Origin: Thalassospira sp.
GTDB taxonomy: Bacteria; Pseudomonadota; Alphaproteobacteria; Rhodospirillales; Thalassospiraceae
Assembly (NCBI RefSeq): GCF_002709775.1
Contig: NZ_PAQR01000018.1
Location: 1-64,000 of the forward strand
DNA length: 64,000 bases
Reading direction: 5' to 3'
Part shown: piece after piece, positions 4,098 through 14,500 of the stretch
Numbering within the stretch: the first letter of the stretch is position 1
How the letters are laid out: each line of letters opens with the position of its first letter
Notes under the pieces: model-generated
What the model was told of the DNA's origin: nothing
Database searches by the model: none
The model's input: the letters and a program-made list of their open reading frames with translations, nothing else
Program-made: the position numbers and the translations under genes

Positions 4098-4135
4098 CTC
4101 TCAATTCATCTCTTACGGTTCTTATGAGGCTCTGA

Positions 4136-4999
4136 ATGGCTGAAATGGTTGATATCGAGTTGATCACGATTGGTGAACGTCTGCGAGCCGTTGACCAAGA
4201 CCATGTTGCAGTGATTGCAGACAGCATCCGTCAATGTGGACGTGTTCTGCAGCCAATTACGATCTCACGGAAATTTGCCACAAGGGACGCACTGCGCCCG
4301 GAGATGACCTTGCTTGCGGGTGCACACCGGTTGGCCGCTGCGAAACTGGCAGGTCTTGATGTGATCCCTGCTGAAATTGTCGACGATATCAAGCCGCTTC
4401 AAGCCAAACTAATAGAGATTGATGAGAACCTTCTGAGACACGAATTGAACCCTCTGGATCGGGCGGTTTTCCTTGCCGAACGCAAGCGCATTTACGAAGA
4501 GCTACACCCTGAAACAAAGGCCGGTGTTGCCGGTGCAAAAGCCAAACATGGGTCTGCAAGCGACACGATGTCGTTTGCAAAAGATGCAGCAGATCGTCTG
4601 GGCTTTAACCCACGCACGATTGAGCGATCAGTAAAGATCGCCACCAGCTTGTCACCGGAAGTTCGCAAGAACCTTGTCGGCACCGACCTTTCCAAAAACC
4701 AAAGTGAATTACTGCTTTTGGCCAAGCAGGAGCCGGACGCGCAGATCAAGATTGTTGAACTGATCCTTGATCAGAAGCACGGGGTTAAATCGGTTAAAGC
4801 CGCGCTTGAGCGAACCAGTGGCAAGCCGAAGGTAGTTGCGGATACGACTCAAGCCGAAATCAAAAAACTGATGGATGCCTGGCGTCATTCAGGTCTTACC
4901 GCACGACGGACGTTCGTCCGAGAGCTGTCAGCCGGAGATCGTCTTCTTCTCCAAGATTTGCTCGATATGGCAAATCCTGACACCGAGGAGGCTGCTTGA
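4136..4999 (+). CDS. ParB/KorB-like nuclease-domain protein
   Basis: 287 aa. The N-terminus (~5-110) matches the ParB/Srx fold: IRQCGRVLQPITIS, LLAGAHRLAAAKLAG (the GxxR-type motif) and IDENLLRHELNPLDRA. Residues ~140-185 carry a KorB-like HTH (ADRLGFNPRTIERSVKIA). The rest is a helical tail. Proteins of this type occur in the early region of Mu-like phages of alphaproteobacteria between ner and A. It probably binds phage DNA or regulates early functions; the biochemical role is unknown. Its stop overlaps the next start (TGATG), showing one operon. Confidence 0.75.
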   Translation: MAEMVDIELITIGERLRAVDQDHVAVIADSIRQCGRVLQPITISRKFATRDALRPEMTLLAGAHRLAAAKLAGLDVIPAEIVDDIKPLQAKLIEIDENLLRHELNPLDRAVFLAERKRIYEELHPETKAGVAGAKAKHGSASDTMSFAKDAADRLGFNPRTIERSVKIATSLSPEVRKNLVGTDLSKNQSELLLLAKQEPDAQIKIVELILDQKHGVKSVKAALERTSGKPKVVADTTQAEIKKLMDAWRHSGLTARRTFVRELSAGDRLLLQDLLDMANPDTEEAA

Positions 5000-5472
5000 T
5001 GGCACGGCAACGTTCAGATCGCAAGACACTGGACCTGCTGAGCTGGCATCCCTCCAGCCCGAAGGTCGAAAGGTTCGAAGAGCAGATGGTTCGAGCAGCG
5101 ACCATCAGCGGCAAGATCGCACTGGCGGTGTCTCGCATTCTTGCAGATGTGAAGGTCCGCGAAAAGGAACCGCTGGAACGCGAGGACGTAGCACGCCGCA
5201 TGGGAGAATTTCTTGGTGAAGAAGTCTCCAAAAACATGCTCGACGCCTATGCTAGCCAATCCCGAGAAGATCACAAAATCAGCGTGCCGCGTGCTGTTGC
5301 GCTCATGCACGCGACCGATGATTACAGGCTTTTGACCCTACTGGCCGAGGAGCTTGGCCTGACCGTAATTCCACGGAAATACGAAGGCACGGTTCGCGAA
5401 GCCATCCTTGCTGAAAAAATCGAAGAGCTTAACGGGGAGCTTCATTCTCTCCGGCGCGGGAGGAAGTCGTAA
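4999..5472 (+). CDS. conserved early protein preceding the transposase
   Basis: 157 aa from ATG 4999, which overlaps the previous stop. Mostly helical and charged, with no signal or membrane segment. Motifs include LDLLSWHPSSP and REDVARRMGEFLGEEVSKNMLDAYAS, which could be a small DNA-binding helical unit. Its position directly before A with a TAATG overlap points to a transposition or early regulatory role. I recognise it only as a gene seen at this place in related Mu-like phages. Confidence 0.65.
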   Translation: MARQRSDRKTLDLLSWHPSSPKVERFEEQMVRAATISGKIALAVSRILADVKVREKEPLEREDVARRMGEFLGEEVSKNMLDAYASQSREDHKISVPRAVALMHATDDYRLLTLLAEELGLTVIPRKYEGTVREAILAEKIEELNGELHSLRRGRKS

Positions 5473-7415
5473 TGCAAGAGTGGTTTTCACCCGCTGAAAT
5501 CGCCGAACTGAGGTTGCCAAGCACACCGGGCACCAAGATGGGTGTCAATGCGTTGGCAGATCGCAACAACTGGCGTGATGCATCCACCCATAACAATGAC
5601 CCGCTTGCAAGGAAACGCAAAGGGCGCGGCGGCGGTTGGGAATATCACTGGTCATTGCTGCCAATACCGGCCCAAACAGAGCTACAAAAGCGAGAGATCG
5701 CCCGCAAGAAAGCCGAAGCACCGCAATCAAATGGACGGGGTTCGACTGCTGCCCGCGTAGATTGGGAGTGGTTTGAGGCTCTGCCGGAAGCTCGGAAGAA
5801 AAAGGCACATGATCGGTTTGCTGTTCTTGATGCGATTTGCACTCTGCAACGTGGTGCGCTTTCAAAAGATCAAGCCGTATGCAGCGTTTCTGCACAACAG
5901 AACATCGGTGCATCCACGATCTACAACTGGTTCAAGCTGGTTGAAGGTTTGGATCGCAAAGATTGGTTGCCTGCCCTCTGTCCACGACATGCCGGCCGCA
6001 CGAAGAAGGTGCCTTGTGACCCGCTCGCTTGGGAATGTCTGAAGGCTGATTTTCTTCGCCTTGAAAAGCCGCCATTTGCTGCCTGTTATCTTCGACTTGA
6101 GACAGCGGCGCAGGAGAATGGTTGGACGATACCAGCTGCACGCACACTGGAACGGCGGTTGGAAAGCGAAATACCGGCTCCGGTTCGTGTCTTGCTGCGC
6201 GAAGGTAGTGAAAAACTCAAGATGATGTATCCGCCCCAGGTGCGCGACAGATCAGAATTCCACGCTATGGAAGCGGTCAACGTTGATGGTCACAAATGGG
6301 ACGTATGGGTTGAGTTCCCGGATGGCGAGATTTGCCGCCCAATCATGATTGCGATTCAGGATCTGTATTCCAACAAATGTGTCGCCTGGCGCGTAGATAA
6401 ATCCGAGAACTCTGACCTCGTTCGACTGGCCTTTGGTGATTTGTTCCGTGAATACGGTATCCCGGATCATGCATGGCTTGATAACGGTCGCGGATTTGCT
6501 GCCAAGTGCATTTCGGGCGGCACGCCAAACCGTTTCCGGTTCAAGGTCAAGCCTGAAGAACCAAGCGGTATCCTCACCGCACTGGGCATCAATATCCACT
6601 GGACCACACCGTATTCCGGGCAATCCAAGCCAATCGAACGCATGTTCCGGGATTTCTGCAACCACATTGCGAAACATCCGAAATTCGCCGGTGCCTACAC
6701 CGGCAACAAGCCGGATGCCAAGCCGGAAAACTACCGCAGTAAAGCGATCCCGCTTGATGAATTTTTGAAGGTCGTTGGCGAGGGCATTCGCGTCCACAAC
6801 GCACGTCCGAAGCGCAATACGCGGGTGTGCGGTCGGGTTCGGTCTTTTGACCAAGCATTCGATGCCAGCTACGCGGATTCCGTCATCCGCAAGGCAGCAC
6901 CCGAGCAATTGCGCATGTGCCTGCTTGCCGCCGAACAGATCCGCACGGATCAGCGCAGTGGCCGGATCGAGCTTATGGGGAACTTCTATTGGGATGAATG
7001 CCTGCATGATCACATGGGCAAGTCGATCATGGTGCGGTTTGACCCGGACTTCCTCCATGACAGCGTTTACGCCTATCGCCTTGATGGCAGTTTCATCGGT
7101 GAAGTCGGCCTTTGGGAGGCCAGTGGGTTCGCTGATCGCAACGCGGCTCGCGAACATGGCCGCAAGCGTCGAGCATTCATCAATCTGACCAAGAAAGCCG
7201 CCGAGATCGAGCGCACACTTTCACTTGAAGAATACATGGATCTGCTTCCGGACAGCGATGACGCCGACGCGGCACCGCAGCCCGCTGCTGTTCGCCTGGT
7301 TACAGGCAACCTTGCACGCCAAGCCGAGGCATTACCAACACCTGATGACGAAGAAGATTTTTCACGGAATTTCCGGGCTGGTCTGCAGATCCTGCAGGGC
7401 GGACGGGATGAGTGA
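5472..7415 (+). CDS. A: Mu-type DDE transposase (MuA homologue)
   Basis: 647 aa, close to Mu A (663). The N-terminus (~1-60, WFSPAEIAEL...GVNALADRNNW) resembles the Mu end/enhancer-binding domain. An Arg/Lys-rich stretch and HTH-like segments follow (QQNIGASTIYNWFK ~147-160). The RNase H-like core has D272 (VNVDGHKW), D337 (AWLDNGRG) and E389 (GQSKPIERMF), nearly the spacing of Mu D269, D336 and E392. The C-terminus is acidic and may bind the B partner. It joins phage ends to target DNA for integration and replication. The catalytic triad is intact, so the prophage should be mobile. Confidence 0.97.
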   Translation: MQEWFSPAEIAELRLPSTPGTKMGVNALADRNNWRDASTHNNDPLARKRKGRGGGWEYHWSLLPIPAQTELQKREIARKKAEAPQSNGRGSTAARVDWEWFEALPEARKKKAHDRFAVLDAICTLQRGALSKDQAVCSVSAQQNIGASTIYNWFKLVEGLDRKDWLPALCPRHAGRTKKVPCDPLAWECLKADFLRLEKPPFAACYLRLETAAQENGWTIPAARTLERRLESEIPAPVRVLLREGSEKLKMMYPPQVRDRSEFHAMEAVNVDGHKWDVWVEFPDGEICRPIMIAIQDLYSNKCVAWRVDKSENSDLVRLAFGDLFREYGIPDHAWLDNGRGFAAKCISGGTPNRFRFKVKPEEPSGILTALGINIHWTTPYSGQSKPIERMFRDFCNHIAKHPKFAGAYTGNKPDAKPENYRSKAIPLDEFLKVVGEGIRVHNARPKRNTRVCGRVRSFDQAFDASYADSVIRKAAPEQLRMCLLAAEQIRTDQRSGRIELMGNFYWDECLHDHMGKSIMVRFDPDFLHDSVYAYRLDGSFIGEVGLWEASGFADRNAAREHGRKRRAFINLTKKAAEIERTLSLEEYMDLLPDSDDADAAPQPAAVRLVTGNLARQAEALPTPDDEEDFSRNFRAGLQILQGGRDE

Positions 7416-7479: not shown

Positions 7480-8448
7480 ATGAACAATATCGTTGCGACA
7501 GACAGCACTTTTACAGACGAAGAGATTCAGGAAATCCGCAGCCGTGTCCAAGAGGTCATGGACGCAGAGGGCTACAGCCAAGCCGATGTGGCAAAGCTGA
7601 CCGGTGTAAAATACGGCACGTTCACTGGCTGGTTCAAAGGCACTTATGCCGGCAACAATTCCCGCGTGGCGGGCGAGGTTCAAATCTGGCTGTCAGGTCT
7701 GGGCGAGAAAAAGCAGACGGCAAAGCGGGTGCCGCGCATCCCTGACTATGTTGAAACCCCGTCAACGATCGAGTTCATGAGCGCGTTGCAATATGCCCAC
7801 GTGCTGCCGGAAATCGCCATTATCGCCGGTGGTGCCGGTATCAGTAAGACGACAGCGTGCGAACAATATGCCCGTACCAATCGCAATGTCTGGGTGGCGA
7901 CCATGGAGCCGAGCACCAAGGGCACGCACGGCATGTTGCTTGAATTGGCAGAAGTGCTTGGCATTACCGAGAAGTCACCAACCAAGCTGTCAAAGGCAAT
8001 CGTAAACCGCGTTGATGGCACCAACGGCTTGATCATCATCGACGAAGCCCAGCATTTGACAACTGAGGCGCTTGATCAGGCGCGGTCCATTTATGACAAG
8101 GCACGCGGAACTGTCGGGCTGGTGTTTGTTGGGAATGAAACGGTTTACGCCCGACTGGAAGGCAACGGACGCAAACCCGGTTTCGCGCAGCTTTTTTCAC
8201 GGGTTGGCGTGCGCTGTACACAAAACCAACCGAAAGCAGCCGACATGTGTGCGTTGATCGCTGCCTGGGATATCACTGAAAAAGAAGAAATCCGATACCT
8301 CAAGGCGATTGCGCGTAAGCCAGGCGCTCTGCGTGGGATGACCAAATGCTTGCAGTTGGCAACCCTTCTGGCGAATGGCGCAGGCGTTCCCCGCACAATC
8401 GAGCACATCAAGATGGCGTGGGAAAAACATTCCTCGTCAGCAGTGTAA
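7480..8448 (+). CDS. B: Mu B-like AAA+ ATPase, target selection
   Basis: 322 aa (Mu B 312). An N-terminal HTH (~30-55, YSQADVAKLTGVKYGTFTGW) is followed by an AAA+ core: Walker A GGAGISKTT (117-125, a relaxed P-loop as in Mu B) and Walker B LIIIDEAQH (184-192). The C-terminal helical domain ends IEHIKMAWEKH. By homology it coats target DNA in an ATP-dependent way, delivers it to A and provides target immunity. It sits directly after A with an AAAGGA ribosome site. Confidence 0.92.
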   Translation: MNNIVATDSTFTDEEIQEIRSRVQEVMDAEGYSQADVAKLTGVKYGTFTGWFKGTYAGNNSRVAGEVQIWLSGLGEKKQTAKRVPRIPDYVETPSTIEFMSALQYAHVLPEIAIIAGGAGISKTTACEQYARTNRNVWVATMEPSTKGTHGMLLELAEVLGITEKSPTKLSKAIVNRVDGTNGLIIIDEAQHLTTEALDQARSIYDKARGTVGLVFVGNETVYARLEGNGRKPGFAQLFSRVGVRCTQNQPKAADMCALIAAWDITEKEEIRYLKAIARKPGALRGMTKCLQLATLLANGAGVPRTIEHIKMAWEKHSSSAV

Positions 8449-8458
8449 GGAGGCCCCA

Positions 8459-8758
8459 ATGCTTAGTCAGAAACTCTCAAGCGTCACGGCCGCCCTTCGC
8501 AAGCAGGCCAACATCCATGACGGCAAACTTCAGCTCGATACGCACATGACCGATATCTTGCTGAGCAATCTGCAGGATCTGGCCGGTCAGGTCGGCAATT
8601 ACGAAAATACCGAGGGACCGATCCTGATAGCCAATCCCTGCCTGGATGCGATCGAGCGTGCAGTTGCACGCGGTCAGGTGGTCAGTCTGGCTGATCGGCG
8701 CACGGCGGCGAACCTGCAGCGGGATTTGCCGCCAGATGATGGAGGGTCGGTGGCATGA
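8459..8758 (+). CDS. hypothetical early protein
   Basis: 99 aa from ATG 8459, with AGGAGG 6-7 nt upstream and 10 nt after the B stop. Hydrophilic and helical; contains TDILLSNLQDLAGQVGNYEN and an acidic end. No family recognised. The stop overlaps the next ORF (ATGA). It belongs to the early operon between B and gam, where Mu keeps small accessory genes. Confidence 0.6.
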   Translation: MLSQKLSSVTAALRKQANIHDGKLQLDTHMTDILLSNLQDLAGQVGNYENTEGPILIANPCLDAIERAVARGQVVSLADRRTAANLQRDLPPDDGGSVA

Positions 8759-9830: not shown

Positions 9831-10032
9831 GCCAACTGTCCTGTACTCGGTGCTGCTGACAGATCGCCGCAACGTCTATGTTCTGGCACGTCACGCCAAG
9901 GGAGCATTGAGCGTTGCCATATCGCATGGCTACACCCCGGATCGCAGCCCCGGTGTCAGGCCGCGCCGCGCCGTTGATGTGCTCAAGGATCGGGCGATCA
10001 ACTTCAAGTCTGCTGAGGGGGAGGCAGCCTGA
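9817..10032 (+). CDS. small hypothetical early protein
   Basis: 71 aa, ATG within the end of the previous gene, stop overlapping the next start (TGATG). Contains VLYSVLLTDRRNVYVLARHAKGAL and a basic middle; it may be a small alpha/beta nucleic-acid-binding protein. Not recognised. Confidence 0.45.
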   Translation: MSKRKPTVLYSVLLTDRRNVYVLARHAKGALSVAISHGYTPDRSPGVRPRRAVDVLKDRAINFKSAEGEAA

Positions 10033-10256
10033 TGTTTGCTTATTGCTACGAGGGTGGAGACATCCAGTTGGGCGAGCAGCTGCCTGTGAATGCGATCAAG
10101 CTCGCAAGCGGTCCTGAAGCCATTCTTCGCCGCCGTATCGGTTCAAACCGTCGCGTGCCTGGCATCCCGGCCGAGGACGCAATTGGTGACCGCCAGGCAA
10201 TCGAACAATACCGACGATTTCTGATGGCACCACGCAGACGTGTGCGTGGTGGCTGA
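10032..10256 (+). CDS. small hypothetical early protein with basic tail
   Basis: 74 aa. Acidic start (YCYEGGDIQLGEQL) and very basic end (APRRRVRGG). The codons of that tail form a perfect 9-bp hairpin (10228-10236 with 10243-10251), so the sequence may be constrained as RNA as well as protein. It lies just before the structured RNA candidate. Not recognised. Confidence 0.45.
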   Translation: MFAYCYEGGDIQLGEQLPVNAIKLASGPEAILRRRIGSNRRVPGIPAEDAIGDRQAIEQYRRFLMAPRRRVRGG

Positions 10257-10430
10257 TGAGCCAACCGGGGTCGACCCGAACCTGTTGCAAGTCCTTTGGT
10301 TCGGCCCCGGTACCGCTTCAGCAACGAGCAGTCCACGGACTGCTGATTGGTGCAGCGGCGAGCGGAGATGAGGGCGTTATTGCCAAAACCGTCAAGGCCG
10401 CAAGGCCGACCGGAATGGTCCGCTGCACCA
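10228..10430 (+). ncRNA. candidate structured RNA in the early operon
   Basis: Helices read from the sequence: CACCACGCA/TGCGTGGTG (10228-10236 with 10243-10251); ACCGGGG/CCCCGGT (10264-10270 with 10305-10311) stacked through a 5-nt bulge on CCGAACC/GGTTCGG (10276-10282 with 10298-10304); AGCAGTCC/GGACTGCT (10327-10334 with 10337-10344); an 11-bp closing stem TGGTGCAGCGG/CCGCTGCACCA (10348-10358 with 10420-10430); and inside it GGCC-GCAA-GGCC (10396-10407), a GNRA-capped hairpin. The only ORF here (10256-10438) would encode a Cys/Gly/Ala-rich, unconvincing 60-aa peptide. The next gene has its own good ribosome site at ~10441. It could be a cis-regulatory RNA or a processed sRNA. Confidence 0.5.
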
Positions 10431-10452
10431 CCCTTTAACCGAGGAGCAGAAC

Positions 10453-10746
10453 ATGAAAAAGTTCAAAGGTCATCTTAACCACAGGCAAGTTCTGGCGGCA
10501 TGTGCCAAAGCCGGGTTTGAGGTTGATACCTCTCGCTACGATGATGGTGGAGACTGGATCACCATCTGTGGAACGTTCGGAGACAAGAGCCTCCGTATCA
10601 TCTACTCGATCTGGAACGGCAAGTTCATCGGGGAGCTGCCCGATGGCGCTGTTTTCAGCGAAGCCAGCGAACGTTTCGAAGGCTCCGACTGGTACGACGC
10701 CATCTTGGATTTTCTTTACATCGCAGCTGACGACAAGGCTGCATGA
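10453..10746 (+). CDS. hypothetical early protein, acidic
   Basis: 97 aa with a strong ribosome site (GAGGAGCAGAAC before ATG). Residues show an alternating strand pattern (WITICGTFGDKSLRIIYSIWNGKFIGELP) followed by a helix with FLYIAADDKAA. Acidic overall, compact, probably a small soluble alpha/beta protein. No family recognised. It is the first gene after the structured RNA candidate and so the likely target if that RNA acts in cis. Confidence 0.6.
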   Translation: MKKFKGHLNHRQVLAACAKAGFEVDTSRYDDGGDWITICGTFGDKSLRIIYSIWNGKFIGELPDGAVFSEASERFEGSDWYDAILDFLYIAADDKAA

Positions 10747-10747
10747 A

Positions 10748-11047
10748 ATGTCTCATCACTCCGCACATAACCCGGATGCACGCGCTGCGCTTGCCGATTT
10801 GGCAATCGTCGCGGCCGGGTTTCTGCGCGGTCGCGGCCGCATGAAGGCCCGTGAACATCTGCGCAAGGCCATTCATGAAGCGAACGAAGCGTTGAGGGCC
10901 GGTGGATCGGTTGCAGATCATCCTGTGACGATCTCCGACCCTGAACAGTTGGTTCGCGCCTACATCGAGGCCGGTGGCAACTGGCAGGAACTGGTCGCGG
11001 CCGTCAGTCGCCATTCACTTGAGGGGGCAACGCGGCGTCATGATTAA
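10748..11047 (+). CDS. hypothetical early protein
   Basis: 99 aa from ATG 10748, 1 nt after the previous stop. Helical and basic in the middle (LRGRGRMKAREHLRKAIHEANEALRAGG). Overlaps the methylase start by 8 bp. Not recognised; retained for coupling and coding quality. Confidence 0.5.
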   Translation: MSHHSAHNPDARAALADLAIVAAGFLRGRGRMKAREHLRKAIHEANEALRAGGSVADHPVTISDPEQLVRAYIEAGGNWQELVAAVSRHSLEGATRRHD

Positions 11048-12109: not shown

Positions 12110-12375
12110 GTGCGTCCTGGCTAGAAACCGCTCGCAATATCATAGCCGAGTTGGACCGAAGTCTACCCGCCGACTTGTCGCTGAAAGAACGACGGAAGGC
12201 TGTTCGTGAGGCTTACCCGTGGGGTGAGCGCAGCATGTGGCCATACAAGGCATGGTGCAAGGCGCAGCGCGAATATCTCTCCCGGTTCGTGACACCAGAA
12301 GAGAGGCTGCGCAACCTTCCTCTCACACCGCTTGAGCGTCTGGTTGCCAAGTCAAAACGCGGAGATCAATCATGA
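12106..12375 (+). CDS. hypothetical phage protein preceding gemA
   Basis: 89 aa, ATGA overlap with the gene before and an overlap with gemA after. Contains SLKERRKAVREAYPWGERSMWPYKAWCKAQREYL, a pattern I have seen in small proteins next to gemA in Mu-like phages of alphaproteobacteria. Helical and basic. Function unknown. Confidence 0.6.
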   Translation: MSASWLETARNIIAELDRSLPADLSLKERRKAVREAYPWGERSMWPYKAWCKAQREYLSRFVTPEERLRNLPLTPLERLVAKSKRGDQS

Positions 12376-13503: not shown

Positions 13504-13855
13504 TCTTCCGCTCCCGCACGGCTTAACTCAGATCGCTGAGGCATCAGATGCGGAAACCGCGTTGAAGATTGCGTTGGAACGCGGCGGCTCACGGTTGCGG
13601 ATTCCTCAGAAAGCCGAGGGATCTCTATTAGAGCAAATTGTTGGGATTGACGCCGCCCGCAAGATCGTGAAGGATCTGGCCGACGAACGGATTGATATTC
13701 CGCTGGCCAAAAAGATCGTTGCCGGATGGCTTCATGATCAGGGCTGGAGCCAAGAGAAGATCGCCGTGCGGCTAAAGATCAGTCGTCGAACCGTGCAATA
13801 CTGGCAGTCAGGCCAGACGCCGAGCCGCCAAGCCGACCTATTCAATTCCCTTTGA
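13496..13855 (+). CDS. Mor/C-like middle-late transcription activator
   Basis: 119 aa from ATG 13496 (ATG 13490 is close by). Two related segments, GGSRLRIPQKA and ADERIDIPLAKK, match the repeated strand motif of Mor-family dimerisation domains. The C-terminus QGWSQEKIAVRLKISRRTVQYW is a clear HTH. Position immediately before the lysis genes equals that of mor in Mu, whose product dimer activates middle transcription without a good -35 box. The palindrome 13 nt beyond its stop is a candidate binding site. Shorter and diverged from Mu Mor, so the name is by analogy. Confidence 0.7.
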   Translation: MPDLPLPHGLTQIAEASDAETALKIALERGGSRLRIPQKAEGSLLEQIVGIDAARKIVKDLADERIDIPLAKKIVAGWLHDQGWSQEKIAVRLKISRRTVQYWQSGQTPSRQADLFNSL

Positions 13856-13902
13856 TATCCTCATAGTGGCGCAACCGTTGCGCCCTCACACTCGTGAGGA
13901 TA
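13856..13902 (+). promoter_or_regulatory. two-tier palindrome before the lysis genes
   Basis: An inner 17-bp palindrome, GGCGCAACCGTTGCGCC (13868-13884), is enclosed by an outer 8-bp pair, TATCCTCA/TGAGGATA (13856-13863, 13895-13902). The inner part recurs at 21997-22015. No T run follows, so it is more like a protein-binding site or RNA element than a terminator. Confidence 0.6.
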
Positions 13903-13939
13903 GTCGCGCATCTTGCTACCAACACAGTTGGAGCAAGTC

Positions 13940-14500
13940 ATGTACTCCCCCGCGTTTAAAGCTGCCATTCAAACCGTCCTTTTGCATGAGGGCGGTTTTG
14001 CAAATAACCCTGCCGATCCGGGCGGGGCAACCAATTTCGGGATCAGCCTGCGTTTCCTTGTTCAGCAAGGCATGATCGATCTGGATGGCGATGGCTTCCA
14101 TGATTTCGATTTTGACCGGGATGGTGACGTCGATATCGATGATATCCGGGCTGTGCCCAAGGACGCCGCTGTCGAGCTTTATCACCGAGAATGGTGGCAG
14201 AAATTCAAATATGACGTTCTGCCTGCCGAGGTTGCCGCTAAGACTTTTGATCTGGCGGTGAATATGGGTGCCTCGCAGGCGCATAAGCTGCTTCAGCGGG
14301 CCTGCCGATCGTGCGGTGAGAACATCCTTGATGATGGAGTGATCGGGCCTGTCACCCGCAGAACCCTTTTCGATCTTGATCAGTGGGGCGTGATTACAGC
14401 GTTCCGTTCGGAAGCAGCCGGTTTTTACCGGGGGCTTGTCATTGCCAAACCGTCGTTTGTCGAGTTCCGCGACGGGTGGCTTAACCGCGCTTACGCCTAG
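13940..14500 (+). CDS. GH108-type endolysin with an Asp-rich Ca-loop insert
   Basis: 186 aa from ATG 13940 (GGAG 6 nt upstream). The glycoside hydrolase 108 signature HEGGF...DPGGATNFGIS is present, with E17 as the probable catalytic acid. A peptidoglycan-binding half follows (~125-180, DGVIGPVTRRTL). Residues ~46-68 form an insert with Asp at alternate positions (D47, D49, D51, then D55-D67), resembling EF-hand/dockerin loops and suggesting calcium control or stability. No signal peptide, so the downstream holin must release it. It degrades murein for host lysis. Confidence 0.85.
   Translation: MYSPAFKAAIQTVLLHEGGFANNPADPGGATNFGISLRFLVQQGMIDLDGDGFHDFDFDRDGDVDIDDIRAVPKDAAVELYHREWWQKFKYDVLPAEVAAKTFDLAVNMGASQAHKLLQRACRSCGENILDDGVIGPVTRRTLFDLDQWGVITAFRSEAAGFYRGLVIAKPSFVEFRDGWLNRAYA

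Follow-up and report, generated by a model that had tools for sequence, protein, structure and literature searches.

Does a short stretch of the early operon of a Mu-like prophage in Thalassospira sp. encode a structured RNA, and if so, of what kind? We examined the first 64,000 nucleotides of contig NZ_PAQR01000018.1 (assembly GCF_002709775.1; hereafter, the window). An initial annotation, made from the sequence alone, had proposed that positions 10228-10430 contain five helices in about 200 nt, with long perfect pairings at a density not seen in the neighbouring coding DNA, a reading frame of poor composition, and a next gene with its own ribosome site. It named no previously described RNA at this place in Mu-like phages, and suggested either a cis switch for the gene at 10453 or a stable sRNA. 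The operon is Mu-like, with MuA at 5472, MuB at 7480, a Gam-like gene at 8646, an MT-A70 methylase at 11040 and GemA at 12372. The candidate RNA lies between a 74-aa and a 97-aa gene. Loci and genomes retrieved in our searches are referred to below by L and G numbers.

The initial observation is confirmed, as every proposed stem exists at its proposed position. The minimum free energy of 10220-10440 is -107 kcal/mol, against -82.9 +/- 5.1 for 200 dinucleotide shuffles (z -4.72, 0 of 200 as good). Positions 10228-10430 alone give z -5.65 (0 of 300 shuffles as good) and, with 50 shuffles, z -6.06, which ranks second among 319 plus-strand segments of 203 nt in the window. The density of structure is therefore exceptional but not unique. 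The one segment that ranks higher, 13828-14030 (z -6.37, and -5.18 in a separate calculation), lies largely between a small gene ending at 13855 and the next reading frame from 13913, and contains a long hairpin ATCCTCA...TGAGGAT with an inner GGCGCAA/TTGCGCC stem. A simple scan of 9900-10800 found no sigma-70-like promoter, so the RNA would be made as part of the operon.

Features of the structured segment and its flanking genes (L003 is a homologous locus; cells refer to the nine-locus alignment A2; type B and model R1 are explained in the text)
Feature	Position (strand)	Pairing and remarks
Upstream gene	10032..10256 (+)	74 aa; weakly like phage 'host nuclease inhibitor' (phrog_1518, E 1.9e-8); alignment A1
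Hairpin H0	10228..10251 (+)	9 bp, 10228-10236/10243-10251; overlaps the 3' end of the gene 10032-10256; partly conserved (87% of cells paired), which may reflect coding sequence
Outer helix P2	10251..10322 (+)	10251-10258 with 10316-10322, enclosing H1; 92.6% of cells paired, no double change
Hairpin H1	10264..10311 (+)	7 bp, 10264-10270/10305-10311, and 7 bp, 10276-10282/10298-10304 (ACCGGGG/CCCCGGT and CCGAACC/GGTTCGG); main stem of 15 pairs, 100% of cells paired, one pair GC to AU in 3 of 9 sequences
Hairpin H2	10327..10344 (+)	8 bp, 10327-10334/10337-10344 (AGCAGTCC/GGACTGCT); 100% of cells paired, one pair occurs as GC, UA, CG and AU among 9 sequences
Four-helix junction	10348..10430 (+)	closed by an acceptor-like helix of 11 bp (10 in the fold), 10348-10358/10420-10430; exchangeable interior, type B; unconstrained fold z -3.45; R1 hit through the closing helix only; same fold in L003 with two compensatory pairs
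Arm 1 of the junction	10362..10392 (+)	GCGG/CCGT with inner GGCG/TGCC hairpin; identical in L003 except 10385 (unpaired)
Arm 2	10396..10407 (+)	GGCC-GCAA-GGCC, GNRA tetraloop (GAAA in L003)
Arm 3	10408..10420 (+)	GACC-GGAAT-GGTC, abuts the 3' strand of the closing helix as a T-arm would; pair 10409/10419 is A-T here and G-C in L003
Mechanical ORF	10256..10438 (+)	60 aa; judged not a gene
Downstream gene	10453..10746 (+)	97 aa, no family; present in only some homologous loci

We next asked whether the segment might instead be protein-coding. The ORF that runs through it has no family, and is not kept in homologues: in L003 the matching frame has a stop and no ATG at the place, in L018 it has stops, and in L016 it is shifted by one-base indels in the hairpin. 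Between the window and L003, 8 codons change in this frame over 87 nt, of which 7 are nonsynonymous, while the counts in the other two frames are 4 of 6 and 4 of 7. We therefore rejected a protein-coding gene.

DNA and protein searches yielded nine distinct loci with the upstream hairpins (the window, L003, L016, L018, L019, L020, L021, L022 and L041; alignment A2), and these Thalassospira homologues keep the hairpins through paired changes. Compared with 500 shuffles, the number of paired cells, the number of cells with double change and the covariation score exceed all 500, but the number of pairs with double change (186/500) and the number of pair types (338/500) do not, and the structure counted was predicted from the same alignment. 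The paired changes and the lack of protein conservation mean that the segment passes the test that the initial annotation had set for its own refutation. Additional loci carry rearranged versions. L031 and L032 have an insert between H1 and H2, L049 has H2 behind another hairpin, and in L008 (about 1673-1802) and L005 (reverse strand) H2 is replaced by an insert resembling tRNA-Cys (loop TTGCAAG, T-arm ACGGG-TTCAAGT-CCCGT, long acceptor-like stem CAAAGAG/CTCTTTG), in which ARAGORN calls no tRNA. By eye, a recurrent hairpin of the form CCCCKTYACC..TTGAAG or similar loop..GGTSGGGG, or a relative of it, lies near the RNAs of L031, L032, L049, L075, L080 and L082, and also in the Thalassospira loci L051 and L052, where we saw no element.

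The initial interpretation was only partly supported: a structured RNA is supported and a stable sRNA is compatible with the data, but a cis switch for the gene at 10453 is unlikely. On reading the sequences of the nine loci, only three (the window, L003 and L021) have that gene downstream, three have other genes (L016, L022 and L041) and three have none before the next conserved gene (L018, L019 and L020). Moreover, L021 has the same gene behind an unrelated interior. In L008, the accessory gene behind the RNA (2025-2270) encodes a GapR-like DNA-binding protein (PF10073, E 2.8e-32), and similar genes were seen by eye in L032 and L049.

Comparison of these loci revealed that the RNA is modular. 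We calculated the identity of the upstream block, including the 5' strand of the closing helix, and that of the interior for nine pairs of loci. The values (upstream/interior) are 0.96/0.27 for the window and L016, 0.96/0.35 for the window and L018, 0.98/0.36 for L016 and L018, 0.91/0.24 for L003 and L021, 0.92/0.38 for L021 and L022, 0.82/0.41 for L019 and L041, and 0.84/0.41 for L020 and L041, but 0.70/0.92 for the window and L003, and 0.93/0.99 for L019 and L020. Thus, the window shares its upstream part with two relatives whose interiors are unrelated, and its interior with a third relative whose upstream part is less alike. The break is at the closing helix. Of 7 differences between the window and L003 within the junction, four make two compensatory A-T/G-C pairs, one changes G-C to G-U, one is in the GNRA loop and one is unpaired. 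One of the compensatory pairs is in the closing helix, where the window has A at 10354 and T at its partner 10424, while L003 has G and C; the exchanged interior and the frame therefore fit each other, although this is a single comparison of two sequences.

In twelve of the fifteen loci first compared, the place is taken by a tRNA-shaped RNA that we call type A. It consists of a closing helix, a CG linker, a D-arm-like hairpin (GCGTG-GAAAGCAGA-CACGC and paired variants; in L041 in a shifted register), a variable interior, and a T-arm-like hairpin (GCCGG-AGTAGCGC-CCGGC and variants) abutting the closing helix. One of the twelve, L048, has other surroundings. Motif scans found more in viral contigs, and 9 of 317 genomes matched the tail pattern. 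The matches in G001 and G020, of the same genus, and in G204 and G231, of another family of the same order, have the element, while the others that we inspected do not. Among 398 genomes drawn across the phylum there were two matches: L093, which has the frame by eye and by two split model hits (E 0.025 and 0.11), and L094, which looks coding.

The frame also occurs in phages of quite different bacteria, namely Pseudomonas, Ochrobactrum and Synechococcus. In a collection of 50,697 phage records, the D-arm query hit 35 records, of which 10 match over 22-24 nt, in stretches without annotation or annotated as 'hypothetical protein' (PotUPM1, Persinger, POI1126, vB_PaeS-D14H, the Orimi01/Orisa group and duplicate records). 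We inspected one record of each of the 5 distinct phages or groups, with Orimi01 for its group, and all 5 have the T-arm-like hairpin and flanks that pair over 6-12 bp: GGGTGATCTG/CAGATCACCC, GCAGTG/CACTGC, ATCAGAACGG/CCGTTCTGAT, TGCAGAAG/CTTCTGCA and GAGTGATCTG/CAGATCACTC. None of these is the GGTGCGG of the Thalassospira copies, but as PotUPM1 and D14H have similar closing helices, only four are independent. The tail query hit Synechococcus phages Ssp-JY40 and Yong-M3-232, of which Ssp-JY40 was inspected.

To evaluate covariation of the frame, we collected 23 hits with a pairing descriptor, which became 20 distinct composite rows after identical composites (L048, L068 and L046) were dropped. 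Of 18 pairs, 14 show double changes, with 37 such cells against 4.7 in shuffles and a covariation score of 0.370 against 0.093, and sliding the partners destroys the signal. As the hits had to pair to be counted, the 100% pairing of these rows carries no weight; the informative part is the variety of pairs, above all in the closing helix of phages that were retrieved by D-arm sequence only. Similarly, the descriptor gave 0 hits in 3 shuffles of 582 kb, but these were mononucleotide shuffles and the loci had been retrieved by motif. L041, L066, L078, L081 and L093 carry variant elements that the descriptor did not take. Unconstrained folds of L032, L076, L084 and L087 each return the frame as the minimum-energy structure, though L032 (z -0.61) and L087 (z -1.20) are no more stable than shuffles. 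A small second form, in L081 and a second element of L078, pairs D-loop GAAGGA with T-loop TATCAA(G/T)C, which hints that the two loops touch as in a tRNA elbow, but two sequences are too few to prove this. Two loci have two elements: in L084 a variant copy (about 724-818) stands just before the second (about 874-973), and in L078 they lie about 1.8 kb apart (8322 and 10140).

In contrast to the frame, the interiors are diverse. Thirty-two interiors (including L091 but not L066) fall into 25 groups at blastn E 1e-4. A few recur: L049/L080 at 92%, L065/L091 at 78% over 92 nt (although L091 has no clear frame), L042/L046 (which are L019 and L020) at 99%, L031/L045/L082/L068 at 73-91% (L045 and L068 are L022 and L005), and the window/L003 at 93%. 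The four-member group covaries internally, as 7 of 58 predicted pairs have double changes in 4 sequences. Hairpins resembling tRNA T-arms (TT[CA]RANY loop, at least 4 of 5 bp) occur in 7 of 23 interiors against 0.135 expected, which by homology represents two or three independent cases. Most interiors alone are not more folded than shuffles.

The genomic contexts of the elements vary. Only 4 of 31 elements have a canonical tRNA within 1 kb, although some loci have less than 1 kb of flank. In POI1126, the element ends 3 positions before the first base of a tRNA-Gln gene, such that tRNA maturation would, by inference, free its 3' end, and between tRNA-Met and this element lies another RNA-like stretch (L088, about 2326-2490) closed by GTGCGAGGCG/CGCCTCGCAC and ending in CACCA. 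In L078, a promoter-like site with 10 of 12 matches lies 9 bases before a variant element that is weak by model (18.8 bits, E 0.32), and the same contig has a sub-threshold type III hammerhead ribozyme match at 4114-4168 (39.6 bits, cut-off 48.5). In Persinger, the element follows the integrase gene and is followed by a symmetric A-stretch/GC-stem/T-stretch hairpin that we read as a terminator, although the scanner called neither a promoter nor a terminator there. Of ten neighbouring proteins tested, six had PHROG matches: a DNA helicase (L076), a primase/helicase and a terminase small subunit (L077), Sak4-like and exonuclease proteins (L081) and a methyltransferase (L048). One more of L048, one of L075 and two of L093 had none, so a phage setting is not shown for L093.

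How does the window's own copy relate to type A? It has the closing helix followed by the CG linker (GCGGCG after the helix) and occupies the slot behind the same upstream hairpins. However, it lacks the D-arm and T-arm consensus. A model of the type A frame (R1) aligns the closing helix, the linker and only 3 bp of a D stem, with a 38-nt stretch in place of the loop, and although arm 3 is positioned like the T-arm-like hairpin, its loop is not the (R)GTAGCGH of type A. R1 scores the copy at 15.8 bits in an 801-nt search, nearly as much on the opposite strand (12.5), and does not report it in larger searches that included the whole window. It therefore fails two defining features of type A, and we classify it as another cassette in the same slot (type B, with L003 and, more loosely, L018), which works like type A in having a closing helix, a multi-arm junction and an arm abutting the 3' strand.

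We also searched for known RNAs and for further copies. No Rfam 15 family reached its gathering score on the window, and three sub-threshold microRNA/lncRNA hits in 10000-10760 (E 2-4.2) are taken as chance. In 31 further loci that carry elements (scanned in sets of 5, 6, 8, 8 and 4, with L006 and L021 overlapping) no match lay on an element; matches elsewhere were tRNAs, sub-threshold hits and, in L049 at 6681-6847, about 5 kb from an element, isrK (51.6 bits) and C4 antisense RNA (72.9 bits), both above cut-off. A 741-nt query from the window found nothing in the phage collection, nor did the RNA region of L031 in plasmids and phages, the D-arm query in E. coli genomes or the 97-aa protein in a viral scan. 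The type B interior gave only weak hits in phages (best E 0.7), the D-arm query gave a best E of 0.4 in plasmids, and a class-wide search of 385 genomes with the 74-aa protein found only the window's own copy. We took as chance the order-wide hits of 30-35 nt in G129, G165 and G239 and the D-arm matches in L085 and L094, all of which look like coding sequence by eye, and tail matches with 2-3 mismatches in L061-L064, L067 and L070, of which L061, L062 and L067 were inspected. Literature searches, which did not cover subscription papers, listed no description of this RNA that we recognized, including in PMC5492332 and PMC11256456; the motifs of a study reported to be the source of many candidate structured RNAs (10.1093/nar/gkx699) were compared only through Rfam. 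We regard the organization into a frame and a cartridge as a new kind of RNA, with the reservations that any function is inferred and that the window's copy is a variant in the slot rather than a strict member.

Taken together, the analysis shows, with near certainty, that 10228-10430 is a structured RNA segment of the early operon and, very likely, that it is built of constant upstream hairpins (H0, H1 and H2) plus a slot, closed by a helix GGTGCRGCGG...CYGYACC, whose interior is exchanged between related phages. It also shows that in most of the related loci this slot holds a tRNA-shaped RNA whose frame is shared with distant phages, while the interior usually differs. What the RNA does, including its existence as a discrete transcript, is inferred from sequence alone. 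We favour a model, with a probability of about 0.5 overall, in which a stable RNA is taken out of the early transcript and its interior is the active part. That the closing helix with its side arms makes a compact RNA that survives, or is cut out, as a stable small RNA is somewhat more likely than not. That the interior binds a host or competitor factor that normally handles tRNA-like or structured RNA, most plausibly as a decoy or inhibitor in phage-host conflict, is a tentative suggestion, and nothing links the RNA to a defence system. In this view, the frame would keep any interior folded and protected, so new interiors could be swapped in as opponents change. The exchange of interiors independently of the downstream gene argues for selection on their diversity, as expected in conflict with hosts or other phages, and tRNA mimicry in some interiors suggests targets that handle tRNA. 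A broader possibility, doubtful on present evidence, is that phages of at least two bacterial phyla (hosts recorded as Pseudomonadota and cyanobacteria) share an undescribed class of RNA cartridge, in which a tRNA-shaped frame carries interchangeable, fast-diversifying interiors, some built from tRNA parts, that act as decoys or inhibitors against host or competitor RNA-binding systems, and that the window holds a derived cartridge of this kind. A structured RNA with a constant frame and a swapped interior would be an RNA counterpart of exchangeable anti-defence gene slots. As the frame is easily recognized by sequence and covariation, it gives a handle for finding more copies and for asking what phages do with tRNA-shaped RNAs that are not tRNAs.

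Two other explanations are each less likely but remain serious rivals. The hairpins could act in cis on the operon, through antitermination, attenuation, translational coupling or a switch for 10453. The location inside a one-direction early operon without a promoter-like site of its own fits this idea, as do the constant position of H0-H1-H2 behind the end of the upstream gene in nine loci and the next gene's own ribosome site. However, the downstream gene differs or is absent while the RNA stays, the interior changes completely, and the type A frame occurs beside tRNAs, near capsid genes and after an integrase in other phages. Alternatively, the tRNA-like shapes could be RNA punctuation, i.e., cleavage and stability signals that cut the polycistronic early RNA and protect its ends, with the interior as unconstrained filler. 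The tRNA-like frame, the few tRNA neighbours and the weak folding of most interiors are compatible with this, but the recurrence of some interiors in different phages or scaffolds at 73-92% identity and the internal covariation of one group are unlike filler.

Two further explanations are very unlikely. Exchange of both the interior and the downstream gene could reflect a DNA-level recombination hotspot or moron landing site, in which the inverted repeats serve exchange rather than an RNA, but the compensatory changes, G-U pairs and kept GNRA loop point to selection on RNA. Decayed tRNA genes of a phage tRNA cluster could account for the occasional neighbouring tRNAs and the T-arm-like hairpins. 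Against this, the loops are conserved and not those of tRNA, helices covary across distant phages, ARAGORN called no tRNA on an element in the loci scanned, and decay does not keep helices paired.

Among known RNAs, tRNA (RF00005) shares with the type A frame an acceptor-like helix, a 2-nt linker, a D-arm-like hairpin and a T-arm-like hairpin abutting the 3' acceptor strand, and the window's copy is an 83-nt four-helix junction. However, neither ARAGORN nor Rfam calls a tRNA on the window or on an element in the loci scanned, the closing helix is 6-12 bp, the T-loop is not TTCRANY but mostly (R)GTAGCGH, the frame has no anticodon arm, and the interior is 39-177 nt. Like the elements, tmRNA (RF00023) has tRNA-like ends with a long insert where the anticodon arm would be, but there is no ARAGORN or Rfam match on the window or on an element, with a tag frame sought only through ARAGORN, and the T-arm is not canonical. 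Proteo-phage-1 RNA (RF03044) is also a phage structured RNA near phage tRNA genes. A sub-threshold hit (37.6 bits, cut-off 42) lies at L066 282-369, in a stretch with five tRNA genes and about 1 kb from an element, but no hit lies on the window or on an element in the loci scanned. Bacterial Y RNAs (YrlA) have a tRNA-mimicking module inside a stem-closed RNA, but there is no Rfam match, and the Ro60/TROVE partner was absent from 7 of 7 host genomes searched, so we rejected this identity. Finally, HK022-type put RNA antitermination sites are structured hairpins in a phage early transcript, whereas the RNA described here is not promoter-proximal and has an exchangeable interior, and the frame occurs outside early operons.
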